A stretch of 64,000 nucleotides of DNA from Caldilineaceae bacterium (GTDB lineage Bacteria; Chloroflexota; Anaerolineae; Caldilineales; Caldilineaceae), in assembly GCA_020845455.1 (NCBI GenBank), contig JADLFO010000041.1, positions 1 through 64,000 on the forward strand, given 5' to 3'. A model generated the notes under the pieces. That model was not told where the DNA came from, searched no databases, and saw nothing but the letters and a program-made list of their open reading frames with translations. The position numbers were made by a program, and so were the translations under genes. The stretch's first letter is position 1. Each line of letters opens with the position of its first letter. Below are positions 9,623-36,079 of this stretch, piece by piece.

Positions 9623-9649
9623 GGGGGCGCGCCGCTGGGACGCGCCCCC
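9623..9649. terminator. Shared hairpin between convergent genes
   Basis: GGGGGCGCG (9623-9631) and CGCGCCCCC (9641-9649) form a 9-bp perfect stem with a 9-nt loop between the converging stops at 9578 and 9688. Its position suits a bidirectional terminator. No T-run is present. Confidence 0.6.
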
Positions 9650-9687
9650 TCGCTATACCAAACTCTTGACTGTGGGGCGAACTTGGT

Positions 9688-11091
9688 CTAGCCGCCGGCC
9701 ACCATAGGGATAAAGAGCGGGAACGGATCGTTGGTTATCACCAGGTCGGCGTCAAGCTCTGCTTGCGCCAGCAGGGAGGCCACGCGTGTTTCGATCTGCT
9801 CGACATCCTCCTGCGTGGCGGCTTCCTGGTGGATCGTGATCTGGCCGCCGCCCAACGCGACTAGCGCGCCGCTGTCATAGACGAGAGTCTCGACGCCGCC
9901 CTCGAGCGAATAGATCTGCAGCCGAACTTGGTCGGGGTTGCCGGCGACGATCTCCAGGCGGAAGCGGGCCGGTTGCTCTTTGGGGCCGCCGCTGGGCTTG
10001 CCGGCAGTTTTGATGGTCCCCTCACCCTCGATCTGCGCTGTGCCCGCCGCCGGGTCCACGACCAGCAGGGTAATGGTGTCGGCGTGAAGCTTTAGCTTGG
10101 TCGTGTGGATATTGGCCTGCAAGCTGCCGTGAAAGTCGGGGCTGCCGGGCAGTTGCATGGCGTTGAAGCCAAAGGTCACCTTGGGGTTCTTGGCCCCTGC
10201 GGGCGCGTTGGGGTCGATAAACCAGCCACCGCCGGTGACAAAACCCGCGCTTGGTTCGGGCGCGCTCGGCTCGAAGTCATAGACGGTGGTGTTGCCGCTG
10301 AAGCCCAGGCGCACATAGTCGACAAAGCTGAGATAGGAACCGGTCCAGCCGGAGCCGAGGCCGACTTCCAGGCCTACGACCAAGGTGTTCGGGCCAAGAC
10401 CCCAATCGTCCAGCCCGCGATCAAAGACGAAGCAGGCGGTGGGGTCGGCAGGGTCGTTGACGCCATCCACGCAGGCGCTGATGCCCATGAAGGTCCCGTC
10501 GATAAACTGGGGAACGCGCCAGAAATTACCGGCCGGTACGTTTTGAGTCACCCAGGTGTCGACCGGCACGGCAGGGCCGTTGGACGGGTAGCCGTTGTAG
10601 ACGCCTTCCCAGACCAGCAGATAGCTGTCGTTGGCGTCGGGGTCATAGACCAGCACGCGCAGCGCCGGGGTCAGGTGGCCGGGGGCGATGCTGCTGCTGT
10701 CGCGATACCAGTCGAAGCCCAGCGCGTCCAGTTGGGCGAGCAAGCCAAACCCGGCCTGCTGGACGATCTGGAAGTCGGTCTTGGGCGAGTAGCCCGCCGT
10801 CTTGGGCGGAGGACTCGCGGGGTCGGGAAGCGACTGTTCAAGCGAGCCTGCGCCGCCGTATGGGTCGGGCTGGGTCGCGGTGATCTGGCTGAGGCCGCCG
10901 TCGCGCTGATTGGCCACATGCCATTGGCCGTCTCCCGTGCCGAGGTCGGCAGGTGTGACTATCTGCACTGTATCGGCGGCCAAGGCGAGATTGCTTGTGA
11001 GCAGCAACAGCGCAAAGCCACAGACCAGGGTCAGTGTCCATCGGGTGCTATATTGGGCGGTATGCCGGATGCTAGCAAATGTCTTTCTCAT
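9688..11091 (-). CDS. Secreted protein with a post-COAP-1-like domain
   Basis: The 467-residue precursor has a signal peptide (basic MRKTFASIRHTAQYS..., hydrophobic LTLVCGFALLLLTSNLALA, likely cleavage after ALAADT). A middle region of about residues 40-280 is Trp/Asp-rich and beta-like. FVTGGGWFIDPNAPAG then opens a domain resembling the post-COAP-1 type found in secreted bacterial proteins. The C-terminus ends in PLFIPMVAGG, similar to short hydrophobic tails of other Chloroflexota exoproteins; a sorting role is speculative. GAGAGGA precedes ATG 11091. No enzymatic motif is visible. Confidence 0.78.
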   Translation of the reverse strand: MRKTFASIRHTAQYSTRWTLTLVCGFALLLLTSNLALAADTVQIVTPADLGTGDGQWHVANQRDGGLSQITATQPDPYGGAGSLEQSLPDPASPPPKTAGYSPKTDFQIVQQAGFGLLAQLDALGFDWYRDSSSIAPGHLTPALRVLVYDPDANDSYLLVWEGVYNGYPSNGPAVPVDTWVTQNVPAGNFWRVPQFIDGTFMGISACVDGVNDPADPTACFVFDRGLDDWGLGPNTLVVGLEVGLGSGWTGSYLSFVDYVRLGFSGNTTVYDFEPSAPEPSAGFVTGGGWFIDPNAPAGAKNPKVTFGFNAMQLPGSPDFHGSLQANIHTTKLKLHADTITLLVVDPAAGTAQIEGEGTIKTAGKPSGGPKEQPARFRLEIVAGNPDQVRLQIYSLEGGVETLVYDSGALVALGGGQITIHQEAATQEDVEQIETRVASLLAQAELDADLVITNDPFPLFIPMVAGG

Positions 11092-11489
11092 GCTGTCCTC
11101 TCATCGGTTGAGCGTCGTTTGCCTGTCGGCGGCTCTGCACTGCGCCGGCTGCGCTACATGCGCCAGTAGGGGAGGCAACGGCGGTTGGAGGGCGTGCAGT
11201 GGTGGGGCTGGGGACAAACGGCGCTGCAACAAAGCGACTGGGTATCGGCATCTCCGTAGACCGGTCATACAGAACCGGGTGTGAGACGCCGCACGATGAA
11301 ACGGCACGCTCCCTGTCTCGGGCGCATCCAGCGCCGAGTCAGGCAAGCGGCATAAGGAACGTTTCCACGATAGAAGGTTTTGGCGCGGAAACAATGACGC
11401 TCGATATACGAGCCGGGTACAGCGCGGGATCGATCGGTCTACTGTAGGCGCGTAGGCAAATGGTCTTGCGCCGGTCCGTTTGCCTACGC
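11092..11489. other. Non-coding gap
   Basis: This 398-bp gap lies between the start of the secreted-protein gene and the end of the class II aldolase gene. It presumably holds the secreted-protein promoter. Short frames across it have no ribosome-binding site or recognisable sequence. Apart from the hairpin at its right end nothing distinctive is seen. Confidence 0.6.
11450..11489 (-). terminator. 11-bp inverted repeat directly after the aldolase stop
   Basis: GCGTAGGCAAA (11450-11460) and TTTGCCTACGC (11479-11489) form a perfect stem with an 18-nt loop, abutting the minus-strand stop at 11490-11492. The location suggests transcript termination or 3'-end protection. No clear T-run follows. 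Confidence 0.55.
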
Positions 11490-12134
11490 TCAACCGGCGT
11501 GCGCCATCGTCCAGGCGGCCAGCAGGGCATCGCCGGCGGCGGAGGTGGTTGGCCCAAAGGCGATGATGCCGTCTTCGTGCCCGCCCATGGCAAAGACACG
11601 GCGCTCTGCGACTTCGGTCTCTGCGAAGAGGCGGCGGACTTCGGCGGCCATCTCTGGGCTGCCATAGGGGACGGCGGGGTCAGTGATGGGCAGGTTGAGC
11701 CGTGCGGCCTGCTGCCAGAGTTCGGGTGAGTGGACATGCAGCACACAGCGCAGGGCGGCATCCACGGCATAGACCGCGCCATGGGTCAACGACTCGGACG
11801 AGGGGCGGATGGGGCCGGTGGCGACGACGCGGTTGTACTCCGGCTCGCAAGCCAAGACCAGCGCATAGTGTTGGGGGGTCAGCGCGGCCAGGTGGCCGGT
11901 CTGCGTGCCGCTGATGGCAAAACGGCGTGCGTTGGGCGGCGCATCGAAGGGAGCCAGACGGCAGCTCAGGTTGCCATAGCCATAGCCGCCGTAGCGCGCC
12001 GGGTCTTGGCCGATGAGCCGCCGCGTATAAAGCGTGTCGCGCCAGCCGTTCAACTCGGCGAGGACCTCGGCGGGCAGCGCCGGGCCAGGTGTATAGACCA
12101 GGTCGAATTTGATGACGCCTTCTTGTTTTGCCAT
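11490..12134 (-). CDS. Class II aldolase/adducin-family protein
   Basis: The 214-residue protein has the zinc-dependent class II aldolase fold: GYGNLSCRL, an ISGTQTG phosphate-loop-like segment, PSSESLTHGAVY and the metal-binding HVHSPELW. Relatives act on sugar phosphates such as fuculose-1-P or methylthioribulose-1-P, or are structural. The substrate cannot be deduced. It stands alone on its strand and diverges from the MBL hydrolase gene. Confidence 0.82.
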   Translation of the reverse strand: MAKQEGVIKFDLVYTPGPALPAEVLAELNGWRDTLYTRRLIGQDPARYGGYGYGNLSCRLAPFDAPPNARRFAISGTQTGHLAALTPQHYALVLACEPEYNRVVATGPIRPSSESLTHGAVYAVDAALRCVLHVHSPELWQQAARLNLPITDPAVPYGSPEMAAEVRRLFAETEVAERRVFAMGGHEDGIIAFGPTTSAAGDALLAAWTMAHAG

Positions 12135-12233
12135 AATGGGTTGAGCCTTGGTTGCGCCCTACATGTTTGACCCGCTTGACCCTACCGTCTAGCCAAGAAT
12201 TAGTCTAGCCAAGAAGTTGCAAGGAGCAAAGAA

Positions 12234-13028
12234 ATGCATTCGTTTAACGCGTTGTCCGTGCCTGCCGGCGCGGTAGGCATCCACTGGTTTGGACAAAGCT
12301 CGTTTGCGTTGAAGGACGCAGTGGGCACAGTGGTCCAGGTGGACCCCTATTTTCCCAGCGAACGGCCCGCCGACCGTTTTATCCACGCGCAGCCGCCGCT
12401 GGACGAGACGACGCTGCCCACGGACTATGTGTTGTTGACGCACAACCACCGCGACCATACCTGGCCGGAATCGCTGCTCAAGATCCACCAGGCGTTTGGC
12501 GGCTGCCGTTTTGTGGGGCCGGTGGAGAGCATCGACAACCTGCGTGAGCACGGCATCCCCGACGACCGTTTGATGACGGTGAATGCCGGAGACACTGTGA
12601 AGCTGGGTGCGGTGACGGTGCATGTGGTGTGGGCCAAGCCGCCGCAGGGCGCGCCGCAAGACGGCATCAAGCCGCCCGATGTGCAGCATTTTGGCTTTGT
12701 GGTGGAGATCGGCGGGGTGCGCGTCTATATTTCGGGCGACCCGATCAACACCTTTGCCGAGCATGATGAACTGACGCAGCCCATCGCCAACCTGCGCCCC
12801 GACATCGGTCTGCTGACCACGCACCCCAGCGAAGGTGAGTTCCCCTTCTTCGATGGTTCGGCCAAGATGGCGCAGAAGATCGGGCTAAAGGCCGCGGTCC
12901 CGGCGCATTACCAGTGCTTTGTCAAGCGCAACTATGACCCGCAGGCGTGGGTGGCGGTTTTTCCGCAAGATGGGCCGGAGTTGATCCTGATCCCCTATAA
13001 CCGCGCCGTGGTCTATCGGGCGAGCTAG
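12234..13028 (+). CDS. Metallo-beta-lactamase-fold hydrolase (UlaG-like)
   Basis: The 264-residue protein carries the metal motif THNHRDHT (HxHxDH) after LPTDYVLL, an ISGDP motif and a later THPSEG/VPAHYQCF region with candidate metal-ligand histidines. This matches the UlaG-like branch of the MBL superfamily, which includes L-ascorbate-6-phosphate lactonase and many unassigned hydrolases. AAGGAG lies eight bases before ATG 12234. The substrate is unknown and no sugar-PTS genes are adjacent. Confidence 0.85.
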   Translation: MHSFNALSVPAGAVGIHWFGQSSFALKDAVGTVVQVDPYFPSERPADRFIHAQPPLDETTLPTDYVLLTHNHRDHTWPESLLKIHQAFGGCRFVGPVESIDNLREHGIPDDRLMTVNAGDTVKLGAVTVHVVWAKPPQGAPQDGIKPPDVQHFGFVVEIGGVRVYISGDPINTFAEHDELTQPIANLRPDIGLLTTHPSEGEFPFFDGSAKMAQKIGLKAAVPAHYQCFVKRNYDPQAWVAVFPQDGPELILIPYNRAVVYRAS

Positions 13029-31163: not shown

Positions 31164-32267
31164 CTAGATCACCTCGATCCCCGGCGTGGGGATGACTTCG
31201 CCGATGGCCCAGACGGGCTGTCCGGCGTCGGCGCAGGCGCTTTCGAAGGTCGTCTCCATGGCCGGGGGCACGGCTATCAACAGCCCGCCGCTGGTTTCCG
31301 CCTCCCACAGCAGGCTGCGCTGGGCGCTGGTCACCTGGGGCGCAAAGCGCACCTGCGCGCCATAGGCTTCGGGGTTGCGGCGGCTGCCCTGGGTCAGATA
31401 GCCGGAGGCGATGTAGTCCCAGACGCCGGGCAGGGCTGGGATATCGGCGGCGCACATGCGGAAGCCTGCTCCGTTTTCGCGTGCCGCAGCCAGCGCCATC
31501 TCGGCGGCGTGGCCGAGCAAGCCGTAGCCGGTGATGTCGGTGGCGCTGCGCACCTGGGCGGTCTGGGCGGCGCGGGCGGCGGCGCGGTTGAGCCGCAGCA
31601 TCGAGGCGATGGCGGCGTCGAGATGGCGCACGTCGAGGTACACTTTGCCTTGGGCGCGGCGCTGGGCTGTGCTCTCCGCCGGGCCGGTCTGTTTGGCTGC
31701 GGTGGTGATGATGCCCGTGCCGAGCGGCTTGGTCAGGTAGAGCCGGTCGCCGGGGCGCGCCCCGCCCTTGCGCAGGATGCGCTGGGGATCGACGACGCCG
31801 GTGACGCTCAATCCGTAGAAGGGTTCGGGGCTGGTGATGGTGTGTCCGCCAGTGATGGGGGCGCCGGCCTCGCGTACCTTGGCTGCGCCGCCCGCAAAGA
31901 TTTGAGCCACGGTCTCGGCAGGGAGGTCGGCGGGGAAACCGGCAATGTTGAGGCAAAACAGGACATCGCCGCCCATGGCATAGACATCGCTCATGGCGTT
32001 GGCCGCGGCCACGGCCCCAAAGGTCCAGGGGTCGTCGACCACCGGCGTGAAGAAATCGGTGGTCTTGATGAGCGCGCGCGTTTCGTCGAGTTGGAAGACG
32101 GCGGCGTCGTCCGGTTCGCCCAACCCAACCAGCACCTCGGGATATTCGGTTGCCGGGAAAAACCCGGCCAGTTGTCGCACGACCTGCGACAGCGTCCCTG
32201 CCGGGAGCTTAGACGCTCAACCGGCGCAGGCGACGCGGGCCGTCAAAGGCAGTGGCTGTTCGCTCAT
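31164..32267 (-). CDS. selD: Selenide, water dikinase with selenocysteine encoded by TGA at codon 17
   Basis: SelD makes selenophosphate from selenide and ATP for selenocysteine synthesis. From ATG 32267, nine bases after AAGGA, the frame reads MSEQPLPLTARVACAG, TGA (32219-32217), then ASKLPAGTLSQVVRQLAGFF and continues to the stop at 31164. The TGA is codon 17 and the following Lys is residue 20, exactly the catalytic Cys/Sec17 and Lys20 of SelD. Downstream motifs include DDAAVF, the metal/ATP segments TTDFFTPVVDDPW and ITGGHTI, and DITGYGLLGHAAEMA. Full length with Sec is 367 residues, normal for the family. A start at GTG 32180 would lose the active site. Confidence 0.93.
32191..32217 (-). 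promoter_or_regulatory. SECIS-like hairpin after the selD TGA
   Basis: Starting at the A of the TGA, AGCGTC pairs with GACGCT and an inner TCCC/GGGA stem closes a GGCA loop; the exact inner pairing alternatives compete. Bacterial SECIS elements sit directly 3' of the UGA in the coding region and are bound by SelB. Position and size fit, but SECIS sequence is poorly conserved. Confidence 0.55.
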
Positions 32268-33946: not shown

Positions 33947-34633
33947 ATGCCTGAAGAACCGCGCATCAAGGTGACCGAGAATGGCCCATACTCCGTCACC
34001 GGCAACGTGCCGATCCGTGTGCAGATTATCGCCACGGATGCTGAGGGCGAACCGAGCGCATGGGTCGAGGGTGAAATGCTTGAAGCCCCGGCGCGCTATC
34101 TGCTCTGCCGCTGTGGGAACTCCGGGAATAAGCCGTTCTGTGATGGGACCCATGCCAAGGTGCAGTTTGACGGCGCCGAAATTGCCAGCCGCGCCCCCTA
34201 TGCCCAACAGTCGCAGCTGATCGACGGGCCGGCCCTGGCTCTGAGCGACGCGCAGCCCCTGTGCGCCGCCGCCCGTTTCTGCCACCTCTATGGGACCGTG
34301 TGGCGGCAGGTGCGCCACACCGATGACCCGGCGGTGGCGGCGCAGTTCATACGCCAGGTCGGCGACTGTCCGTCGGGCAGGCTGGTGGCTTGGGACAAAC
34401 AGACCGGCCGGCCGCTCGAACCTGTCTTGCCCCAGTCGATTGGCTTGGTGCAGGACCCGACCAAGGGCGTGAGCGGGCCGCTGTGGGTGCGCGGGGGCAT
34501 TACGGTCGAGGCCGCCGACGGCACGGTGTATGAGGTACGCAACCGCCAGACCTTATGCCGCTGCGGCGCATCGCGCAACAAGCCGTTTTGTGACGGCAGC
34601 CATATCACCGTCGGGTTTCGGGACGGCCGCTAG
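33947..34633 (+). CDS. Double CDGSH iron-sulfur protein
   Basis: From ATG 33947 (AGAGGA upstream) the 228-residue protein has an N-terminal CDGSH domain (C54-R-C56, C65-D-G-T-H69) and a C-terminal one (C204-R-C206, C215-D-G-S-H219). Each has the CxC...CDGxH ligands of a 3Cys-1His [2Fe-2S] cluster. Between them Cys106, Cys112 and Cys141 lie in a segment resembling the Fe-S/divergent ferredoxin-like domain often linked to CDGSH modules. A role in redox or cluster transfer is likely; the partner is unknown. It is 78 bp upstream of the globin-Rieske gene, probably co-transcribed. Confidence 0.9.
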   Translation: MPEEPRIKVTENGPYSVTGNVPIRVQIIATDAEGEPSAWVEGEMLEAPARYLLCRCGNSGNKPFCDGTHAKVQFDGAEIASRAPYAQQSQLIDGPALALSDAQPLCAAARFCHLYGTVWRQVRHTDDPAVAAQFIRQVGDCPSGRLVAWDKQTGRPLEPVLPQSIGLVQDPTKGVSGPLWVRGGITVEAADGTVYEVRNRQTLCRCGASRNKPFCDGSHITVGFRDGR

Positions 34634-34711
34634 CCGGCTCGCTGCTGCGCCGCGGCGTGCAGCGATAGGTCCGGGGGCCGGTTTGCTTTTTCTCCAGGGA
34701 AGGGGGACGGT

Positions 34712-36079
34712 GTGAACGCATCCGAAAGCCATCACCCGACCGCAGGCCCGGTTCAGCCAGAGCCGGATCAGGATAAAGCGGCGCGTGAGGCGGAGGCGGG
34801 CAGCTTTTTTCGCTATATGGCGGAGTATGTCGGCTTCACCCCTGCCGACGCCGCGCTGATCCGCCAGACCCAGCCGATCCTCGCCAAATACCTGCCGGAG
34901 ATCGTCGGCGACTTCTATACTCATCTCCTGCGCTACCCGCTCACGCGCCGTCTCTTCTTGCTGCCCGACGGCACGCTCAACGAGGCCTATCTGACGTTGC
35001 GCATGCGCCATCTCTCCAATTTCTGGCTGCGGACGGCGGAGGGCGTCTATGACGATGCCTATGCCGGCTATGTCGACTATGTGGGGCGGGCGCATACATC
35101 GCGCGGGGCCGACCCGACTATCTATGTGCCGGAGCGCTATGTGATCGGCCAGGTGGGGATGATTCAACATGCCATCAGCCGGGCGGTCAGCAACGAGCTG
35201 CGCGACCAGGACGACGAGTTGGAATTCCGCGCGGTCGAGGCGTGGGACAAGCTGATGATGGTGCTGCTGGAGATGTTGGCGCGCGCCTATGGGCATGAGC
35301 GCGAACCGGAGGCGGATGGCGCGCCTGTGCCGGTGGATGCCGATTGGGTGCATGCGCTGGCAGACCAAGCGATCACCTTAGAACATGGCGCTGCAGAACA
35401 TGGCGCTGCCCCGGCGCAGCCGCCGCGCCGGGTGGCTGTCGCTACGGCCGGGGAGATCCCCGACGGGCAGCGCAAGATCGTCGCGGTCGACGGCCTGTCG
35501 ATCGGCGTGTTCCACCACCAGGGGGAGTGGGTCGCGCTGCGCAACAGTTGCGTACACCAAGGCGGCCCGGTCGCAACCGGCGCGCTGGCCGGCGAGGTGC
35601 TGACCTGTCCCTGGCACGGCTATCAATACGACCTGCGTTCCGGTCGCTGCCTGACCGACCCGCACGCCGAGCTAGACCGGTATGCGGTGACGGTGGCGGG
35701 CGATACCGTCTTTGTGGATGTGCCACGGGGCGGCCCTGTGGCGGCCATTCAAGCGCAGGACGCGCCGGCGGCCCTTCAGTCGAATGAGTTCCGCGCCGCC
35801 GACTTGGCCGCGGGGCAGATGCTACCCCTGACCGTCGATGGGCGGAGCATCTTGGTCTACAACGTGGGCGGCACGTTTTACGCCACGGACGAGACCTGCA
35901 CCCATGCCCAGGGGCCGTTGAGCATAGGTCATCTGGACGGGAAGGTCATCACCTGCTTGCTGCACGGCTCCTGCTTTGACGTCACCACCGGCGCGGTAGT
36001 GTGCGCGCCGGCCACGCAACCGCTCAAGACCTACCCTGTGACCCTCGACGGCGACATCGGGCGAGTGACGATCGCGTAG
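34712..36079 (+). CDS. Protoglobin-Rieske-Rieske fusion protein
   Basis: The 455-residue soluble protein has three modules. Residues about 30-195 are a protoglobin-type heme domain: YVGRAHTSRGADP places the proximal His at 128, and the helices FFRYMAEYVGFTPADAALI and FRAVEAWDKLMMVLLEMLAR fit the fold. Residues about 240-338 are a Rieske domain with C280-x-H282 and C299-P-W-H302. Residues about 357-455 are a second Rieske with C396-x-H398 and C415-x-x-H418. All eight cluster ligands are present. No oxygenase catalytic domain follows. The design suggests electron transfer between [2Fe-2S] centres and a heme that binds O2, NO or CO. It starts at GTG 34712, shortly after AGGGAAGGGG. Confidence 0.88.
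   Translation: MNASESHHPTAGPVQPEPDQDKAAREAEAGSFFRYMAEYVGFTPADAALIRQTQPILAKYLPEIVGDFYTHLLRYPLTRRLFLLPDGTLNEAYLTLRMRHLSNFWLRTAEGVYDDAYAGYVDYVGRAHTSRGADPTIYVPERYVIGQVGMIQHAISRAVSNELRDQDDELEFRAVEAWDKLMMVLLEMLARAYGHEREPEADGAPVPVDADWVHALADQAITLEHGAAEHGAAPAQPPRRVAVATAGEIPDGQRKIVAVDGLSIGVFHHQGEWVALRNSCVHQGGPVATGALAGEVLTCPWHGYQYDLRSGRCLTDPHAELDRYAVTVAGDTVFVDVPRGGPVAAIQAQDAPAALQSNEFRAADLAAGQMLPLTVDGRSILVYNVGGTFYATDETCTHAQGPLSIGHLDGKVITCLLHGSCFDVTTGAVVCAPATQPLKTYPVTLDGDIGRVTIA

Follow-up and report, generated by a model that had tools for sequence, protein, structure and literature searches.

What does a protein do that joins a protoglobin to two Rieske domains? The question is raised by positions 33,947 to 36,079 of a 64,000-nucleotide stretch of DNA from a Caldilineaceae bacterium (contig JADLFO010000041.1; the whole stretch is called the window below). 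The best-studied protoglobin is that of M. acetivorans, and its biological role is described as still unknown (PMC3680402). The fusion in the window offers a concrete handle on protoglobin function. Its anatomy, as read from the sequence, points to a heme enzyme (or sensor) with an internal supply of electrons. The conserved joining of a globin to ferredoxin domains implies that at least one protoglobin branch is a redox device, and testable partners can be named for it. The reading that is tentatively preferred here is a protoglobin enzyme supplied with electrons by its own domains and working in NO/O2 chemistry.

The globin-Rieske gene starts with a GTG that follows an RBS-like GGGAAGGGGGAC, and no alternative start codon was found back to the stop at 34631. 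The HMM search that the original prediction had named as a test of its globin at residues 30-195 was run, and Pfam supported Protoglobin (PF11563) over residues 33-197 (E 2.6e-24, 86 bits against a cut-off of 25). The profile was matched over the whole domain, and the predicted proximal His128 was found where it had been placed, aligned with H120 of the M. acetivorans protoglobin. Two later stretches were assigned to Rieske (E 2e-37), and both predicted centres were verified at their exact ligand positions (Table 1). When the protein was searched against PDB sequences, its first part led to the M. acetivorans protoglobin and its last part to the dioxygenase ferredoxins (2qpz). The AlphaFold2 model (mean pLDDT 85.3) shows two Rieske folds joined to a globin by a helical linker; at a pTM of 0.61 the folds are predicted and the relative domain positions are not fixed. 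Foldseek matched the model to dioxygenase ferredoxins with a TM on target of up to 0.92. The second Rieske domain matched 5bok and 2qpz, and 2e4q was likewise among the closest dioxygenase ferredoxins.

Both sites are intact CxH...CxxH ligand sets on a Rieske fold, as in Rieske-type ferredoxins. In sequence, fold and ligand set they resemble the Rieske-type ferredoxins of dioxygenases (NDO ferredoxin 2qpz, BphA3, CarAc), but the latter are stand-alone electron carriers that supply a non-heme iron oxygenase. A Rieske non-heme iron oxygenase was considered for the window protein itself and rejected, because Pfam shows no C-terminal catalytic domain with a mononuclear iron site and every one of the 455 residues is otherwise accounted for. 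The absence of an oxygenase module had been correctly predicted.

The original prediction had also described the gene 78 bp upstream as encoding a double CDGSH protein. The gap and the two CDGSH domains (PF09360, E 4.2e-39) stood, and the Fer4_19 domain that separates them (PF06902, residues 93-151, E 1.7e-9) had been overlooked. The order CDGSH-DUF1271/Fer4_19-CDGSH defines subtype CDC of the type-7 CISD proteins (PMC3174974), and the architecture of the upstream protein, which starts with an ATG, is exactly the same. No terminator-like site was found on the + strand of the gap between the two genes, so co-transcription is possible. The occurrence of CDGSH and Rieske domains in one protein has already been recorded in bacteria (PMC5859297); a globin is mentioned neither there nor in the account of the type-7 CISD proteins (PMC3174974).

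Table 1 Coordinates in the window of the CDGSH gene, the globin-Rieske gene and the domains that they encode.
Feature	Position	Strand	Basis
CDGSH - Fer4_19 - CDGSH protein, 228 aa, type-7 CISD subtype CDC	33947..34633	+	Pfam; architecture per PMC3174974
First CDGSH domain, ligands C54, C56, C65, H69 by motif	33983..34159	+	Motif and Pfam
Fer4_19 divergent 4Fe-4S domain, cysteines 106, 112, 141	34223..34399	+	Pfam PF06902, residues 93-151
Second CDGSH domain, ligands C204, C206, C215, H219 by motif	34475..34603	+	Pfam best stretch 177-219
78-bp intergenic gap between the CDGSH and globin-Rieske genes	34634..34711	+	ORF coordinates
Protoglobin-Rieske-Rieske protein, 455 aa, GTG start	34712..36079	+	ORF, Pfam, AlphaFold2
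Protoglobin domain, residues 33-197: His128 (F8), Tyr69 (B10), Phe68 (B9), Arg97 (E7), Leu101 (E11)	34808..35302	+	Pfam E 2.6e-24; alignment to M. acetivorans protoglobin; invariance of F68/Y69/R97/H128 in 26 members
Helical linker from globin to Rieske 1, model helix 210-229	35339..35398	+	AlphaFold2 model
Rieske domain 1, residues 242-335, ligands C280, H282, C299, H302	35435..35716	+	Pfam Rieske/Rieske_2; conserved in every intact member but L053
Rieske domain 2, residues 361-442, ligands C396, H398, C415, H418; ferredoxin type	35792..36037	+	Pfam; PDB sequence and fold matches

The window protein and the proteins of 25 further loci were aligned, and the heme-pocket sites (B9, B10, E7, E11, F8) were named by alignment to the M. 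acetivorans protoglobin. F68 (B9), Y69 (B10), R97 (E7) and H128 (F8) are invariant in all 26 members; E11 varies and is Leu, Gln or Asn. The globin is the same domain as the M. acetivorans protoglobin (PDB 2veb, PF11563), with His F8 (H120 = H128) and Tyr B10 (Y61 = Y69) conserved, but the latter is a single-domain protein and the fusion continues into one to three Rieske domains. Two copies are found in most proteins, one in L025, L042, L044 and L047, and three in L036. Every intact copy of the fusion keeps at least one Rieske domain with all four ligands. The triple-Rieske version (L036:2767-4401) has 545 aa. At L053:1773-3149 Rieske 1 is without its first C-x-H ligand segment and Rieske 2 is intact; L055 runs off the contig edge.

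The fusion recurs in 27 contigs of other assemblies, all Chloroflexota, and the SJ28 copy is 77% identical to that of the window. The contigs were scanned with two short peptide patterns drawn from the clade, which more divergent fusions elsewhere (other phyla) could escape. Eighteen of 396 genomes of the class Anaerolineae carry it, and among the genomes and contigs searched here it was seen only in this class. Chance is thereby excluded as the origin of the fusion, and so is the assembly artefact that the original prediction had considered. The genome searches used an alignment of the globin domains of five members (A2); in a 400-genome sample of the phylum, the window's own genome (5.7 Mb, 94% complete, 5.7% contaminated) was the sole match at E<=1e-25. 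Among named genomes, Chloroflexota/Caldilineaceae MAGs are the nearest to it. Among the plasmid matches listed, only the Rieske part was matched, and none covers 80% of the query. Of the 27 contigs, 26 are Chloroflexota by title; the remaining one, from MAG UCB3, is assigned to the same class by a 616-aa frame identical to that of G113. In the tree, the globin-Rieske proteins form a clade clearly distinct (100/100 support) from the remaining protoglobins of these genomes, and the fusion is patchy, with Caldilineaceae members scattered over several distant positions. These genomes also encode a further protoglobin family, which has a C-terminal ThiS/MoaD-like domain (L002:1426-2343 on C30 of the window's own genome, L075, L080) and forms a separate clade.

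The globin-Rieske fusion was not found in the published open-access literature (5.39 million papers), where "globin domain" and "Rieske domain" nowhere occur together; subscription papers and protein databases lie outside this scope. Protoglobin and Rieske are both mentioned in two of these papers; in one the Rieske passage concerns a gene flanking truncated hemoglobins in Bradyrhizobium, and the other is on gene expression in Nitrosococcus. The fusion is a chimeric globin, which is a known kind, and it may have been annotated earlier outside the open literature.

Because the Rieske domains are of ferredoxin type, vary in copy number and are accompanied by no oxygenase or output domain, we infer that they pass electrons to the heme. 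The range of one to three copies is compatible with an electron relay. A cellular reductase would deliver electrons to the Rieske domains, with the CDGSH/Fer4_19 protein as a further point of entry in the lineages that have it. The heme would be re-reduced by these electrons, which would allow turnover. The likeliest reaction would be NO detoxification, either by O2-dependent dioxygenation of NO to nitrate or by reduction of NO or nitrite at low O2. The iron-sulfur domains would then take the role that the flavin reductase domain has in flavohemoglobin, instead of FAD. With somewhat greater reserve, the fusion could be taken to represent a new class of enzymes, in which a relay of several iron-sulfur clusters (Rieske, CDGSH, Fer4_19) drives a protoglobin as an NO dioxygenase or reductase. 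Such an enzyme would parallel flavohemoglobin on an iron-sulfur basis, and it would be the first protoglobin to carry an electron source of its own.

The mode of action proposed here is by analogy that of flavohemoglobin (Hmp) and of the raphidophyte truncated hemoglobin-nitrate reductase, which are likewise chimeric globins with a built-in electron supply (PMC3820574). These combine PF00042 or truncated globins with a FAD/NAD domain, whereas the fusion has Rieske domains, and there is no whole-protein homology. Pfam finds neither a PF00042 globin nor FAD/NAD-binding domains in the window protein, which is not a flavohemoglobin. Electron bifurcation, which the original prediction had listed as a possible role, is unsupported; neither the protein nor its neighbours in the window include a flavin module.

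NO/O2 chemistry is proposed on four grounds. The M. acetivorans protoglobin acts in vitro as a nitrite reductase and a peroxynitrite isomerase (PMC4020757). Other NO-dioxygenase globins are fed by FNR-type reductases, and globins paired with electron donors are generally NO dioxygenases (PMC3820574). The PF00042 globin, and hence flavohemoglobin, is absent from the window's own genome. A COX1-superfamily subunit (oxidase or NO reductase) is present in 18/18 carriers of the fusion and in 260/378 non-carriers of the class sample (p 0.0014, with genomes counted as independent of phylogeny), which indicates that the fusion goes with cells that use O2 or NO. In human CISD3, reduced CDGSH clusters bind NO (PMC10937110). 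Three observations count against the preferred electron-fed reading. Signalling genes, not reductases, adjoin the fusion gene in several carriers. The BphA4-type ferredoxin reductase (PF14759) is absent from the window's own genome at 94% completeness, and such a reductase was rejected as the partner. The same genome encodes a truncated hemoglobin (L109, C296:2294-2563, PF01152, E 4.6e-17), which could be an alternative remover of NO.

The signalling neighbours raise another option, since the neighbourhoods outside the window's clade hold STAS, RsbW-like ATPase, SpoIIE, class III cyclase and Pyr_redox genes. The fusion would then be a heme gas or redox sensor. The globin would bind O2 or NO or change its redox state, the Rieske domains would set or report redox, and the change would pass, through contact between proteins, to a partner-switching system (STAS antagonist, RsbW-like kinase, SpoIIE phosphatase) or an adjacent kinase or cyclase. 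This is the main rival reading, somewhat less likely than the electron-fed one. Neighbours of these kinds were found in L033, L035, L039 and L048-L051. A STAS gene immediately precedes the fusion in L048 and in L049, where the two overlap by 1 bp and a SpoIIE/GAF gene precedes the STAS gene. In L033, STAS and then an RsbW-like HATPase gene stand directly upstream; in L039 the order is SpoIIE-cyclase-fusion-STAS, with STAS directly downstream. SpoIIE phosphatase genes are near the fusion in L039, L049, L050 and L051 (within 5 kb in L050, together with STAS, and in L051), and class III cyclases in L035, L039 and L050. Upstream of the fusion in L035 is a HisKA/response-regulator/cyclase gene. Pyr_redox_2 flavoprotein genes, which speak for the electron-fed reading, lie 10 bp downstream of the fusion in L037 and two genes upstream in L048, ahead of STAS. 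Eight carrier genomes have a STAS density of about 1.1 per Mb, at which about 0.06 STAS genes would be expected within 1 kb over 25 loci; 4 were observed, and they fall in two independent clades (P 4e-7 counted by locus, about 0.0015 counted by clade). Near the fusion in L049, a second partner-switching cluster (9624-12391, - strand) is a run of genes for a flavoprotein disulfide reductase, an RsbW-like ATPase and two STAS-like proteins.

The globin also belongs to the sensor (S) lineage, and the best fold match of the globin in the model is the AfGcHK sensor domain (TM on target 0.82-0.84 by Foldseek). As in the globin-coupled sensors (AfGcHK, HemAT), the globin is N-terminal and the partner domain C-terminal. 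However, the C-terminal part of those sensors is a kinase, cyclase or chemoreceptor, and that of the fusion consists of electron-transfer domains. Pfam finds Rieske domains alone there, and an output domain (kinase, GGDEF, MCP, STAS) is absent from the window protein. One to three electron-transfer domains would be unusual for a sensor. A signalling neighbour is absent in the window's own clade and in most other loci, and detoxifying enzymes too can adjoin stress-signalling genes. The two readings may also be combined, with the Rieske domains keeping a sensor heme ferrous. If the signalling reading is true, the fusion would be a heme sensor with its own electron-transfer module, tied to partner-switching.

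The anatomy that supports electron-fed NO chemistry would equally serve another heme reaction, such as the reduction of O2 or peroxide or the oxygenation of some substrate, with the Rieske domains as donors. The distal pocket has Phe at B9, the invariant Arg at E7 and Leu, Gln or Asn at E11, as against Trp, Val and Phe in the M. acetivorans protoglobin, so the chemistry may differ. Catabolic or substrate genes do not recur near the fusion at the loci compared, which counts against this alternative, and it is judged improbable.

In the preferred electron-fed reading the CDGSH protein would be one donor, and its linkage to the fusion was followed beyond the window. A CDC-type gene stands directly upstream of the fusion in the window, in G003 (L031, 83% identity) and in G332 (L032, 84%). 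In G001 a contig end truncates the fusion gene, and the CDGSH gene (95%) is on another contig. MAG UCB3 has one ORF for CDGSH-Fer4_19-CDGSH-protoglobin-Rieske (L047:4032-5735, 568 aa from ATG 4032), whose N-terminal part is 49% identical to the CDGSH protein of the window; its predicted fold was poor (pLDDT 64 from 7 sequences) and was left out. UCB3 falls outside the window's clade in the tree, so the link either arose twice or is old and was often lost. A relative of the CDGSH protein at E<=1e-15 is present in 9/18 carriers and 11/188 non-carriers (Fisher p 3e-6, with genomes counted as independent of ancestry; the non-carriers are from a smaller sample, and 188 assumes 11 carriers among its 199 genomes). 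The predicted coupling of the two proteins holds as adjacency in the window's clade and as one polypeptide in UCB3, but most carriers have no linked copy. That the adjacency is functionally meaningless, with the fusion protein acting alone or with unlinked partners, agrees with the few linked copies and with the lack of a relative at E<=1e-10 in 7/19 carriers searched, and is yet quite improbable in view of the conserved adjacent gene in G003 and G332, the independent gene fusion in UCB3 and the co-occurrence above. The CDGSH fusion is a rare functional lead for the type-7 CISD proteins.

A conserved operon past the CDGSH gene was rejected, because the flanking SDR and GH20 genes of the window are non-recurrent. 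Farther upstream, the window holds a selD gene (selenophosphate synthetase, 31164-32249, - strand) whose N-terminal part is severed by an in-frame TGA at 32217-32219. When this TGA is read as selenocysteine, ACAG-U-ASKLP stands at the expected catalytic position, and SelD itself is probably a selenoprotein.
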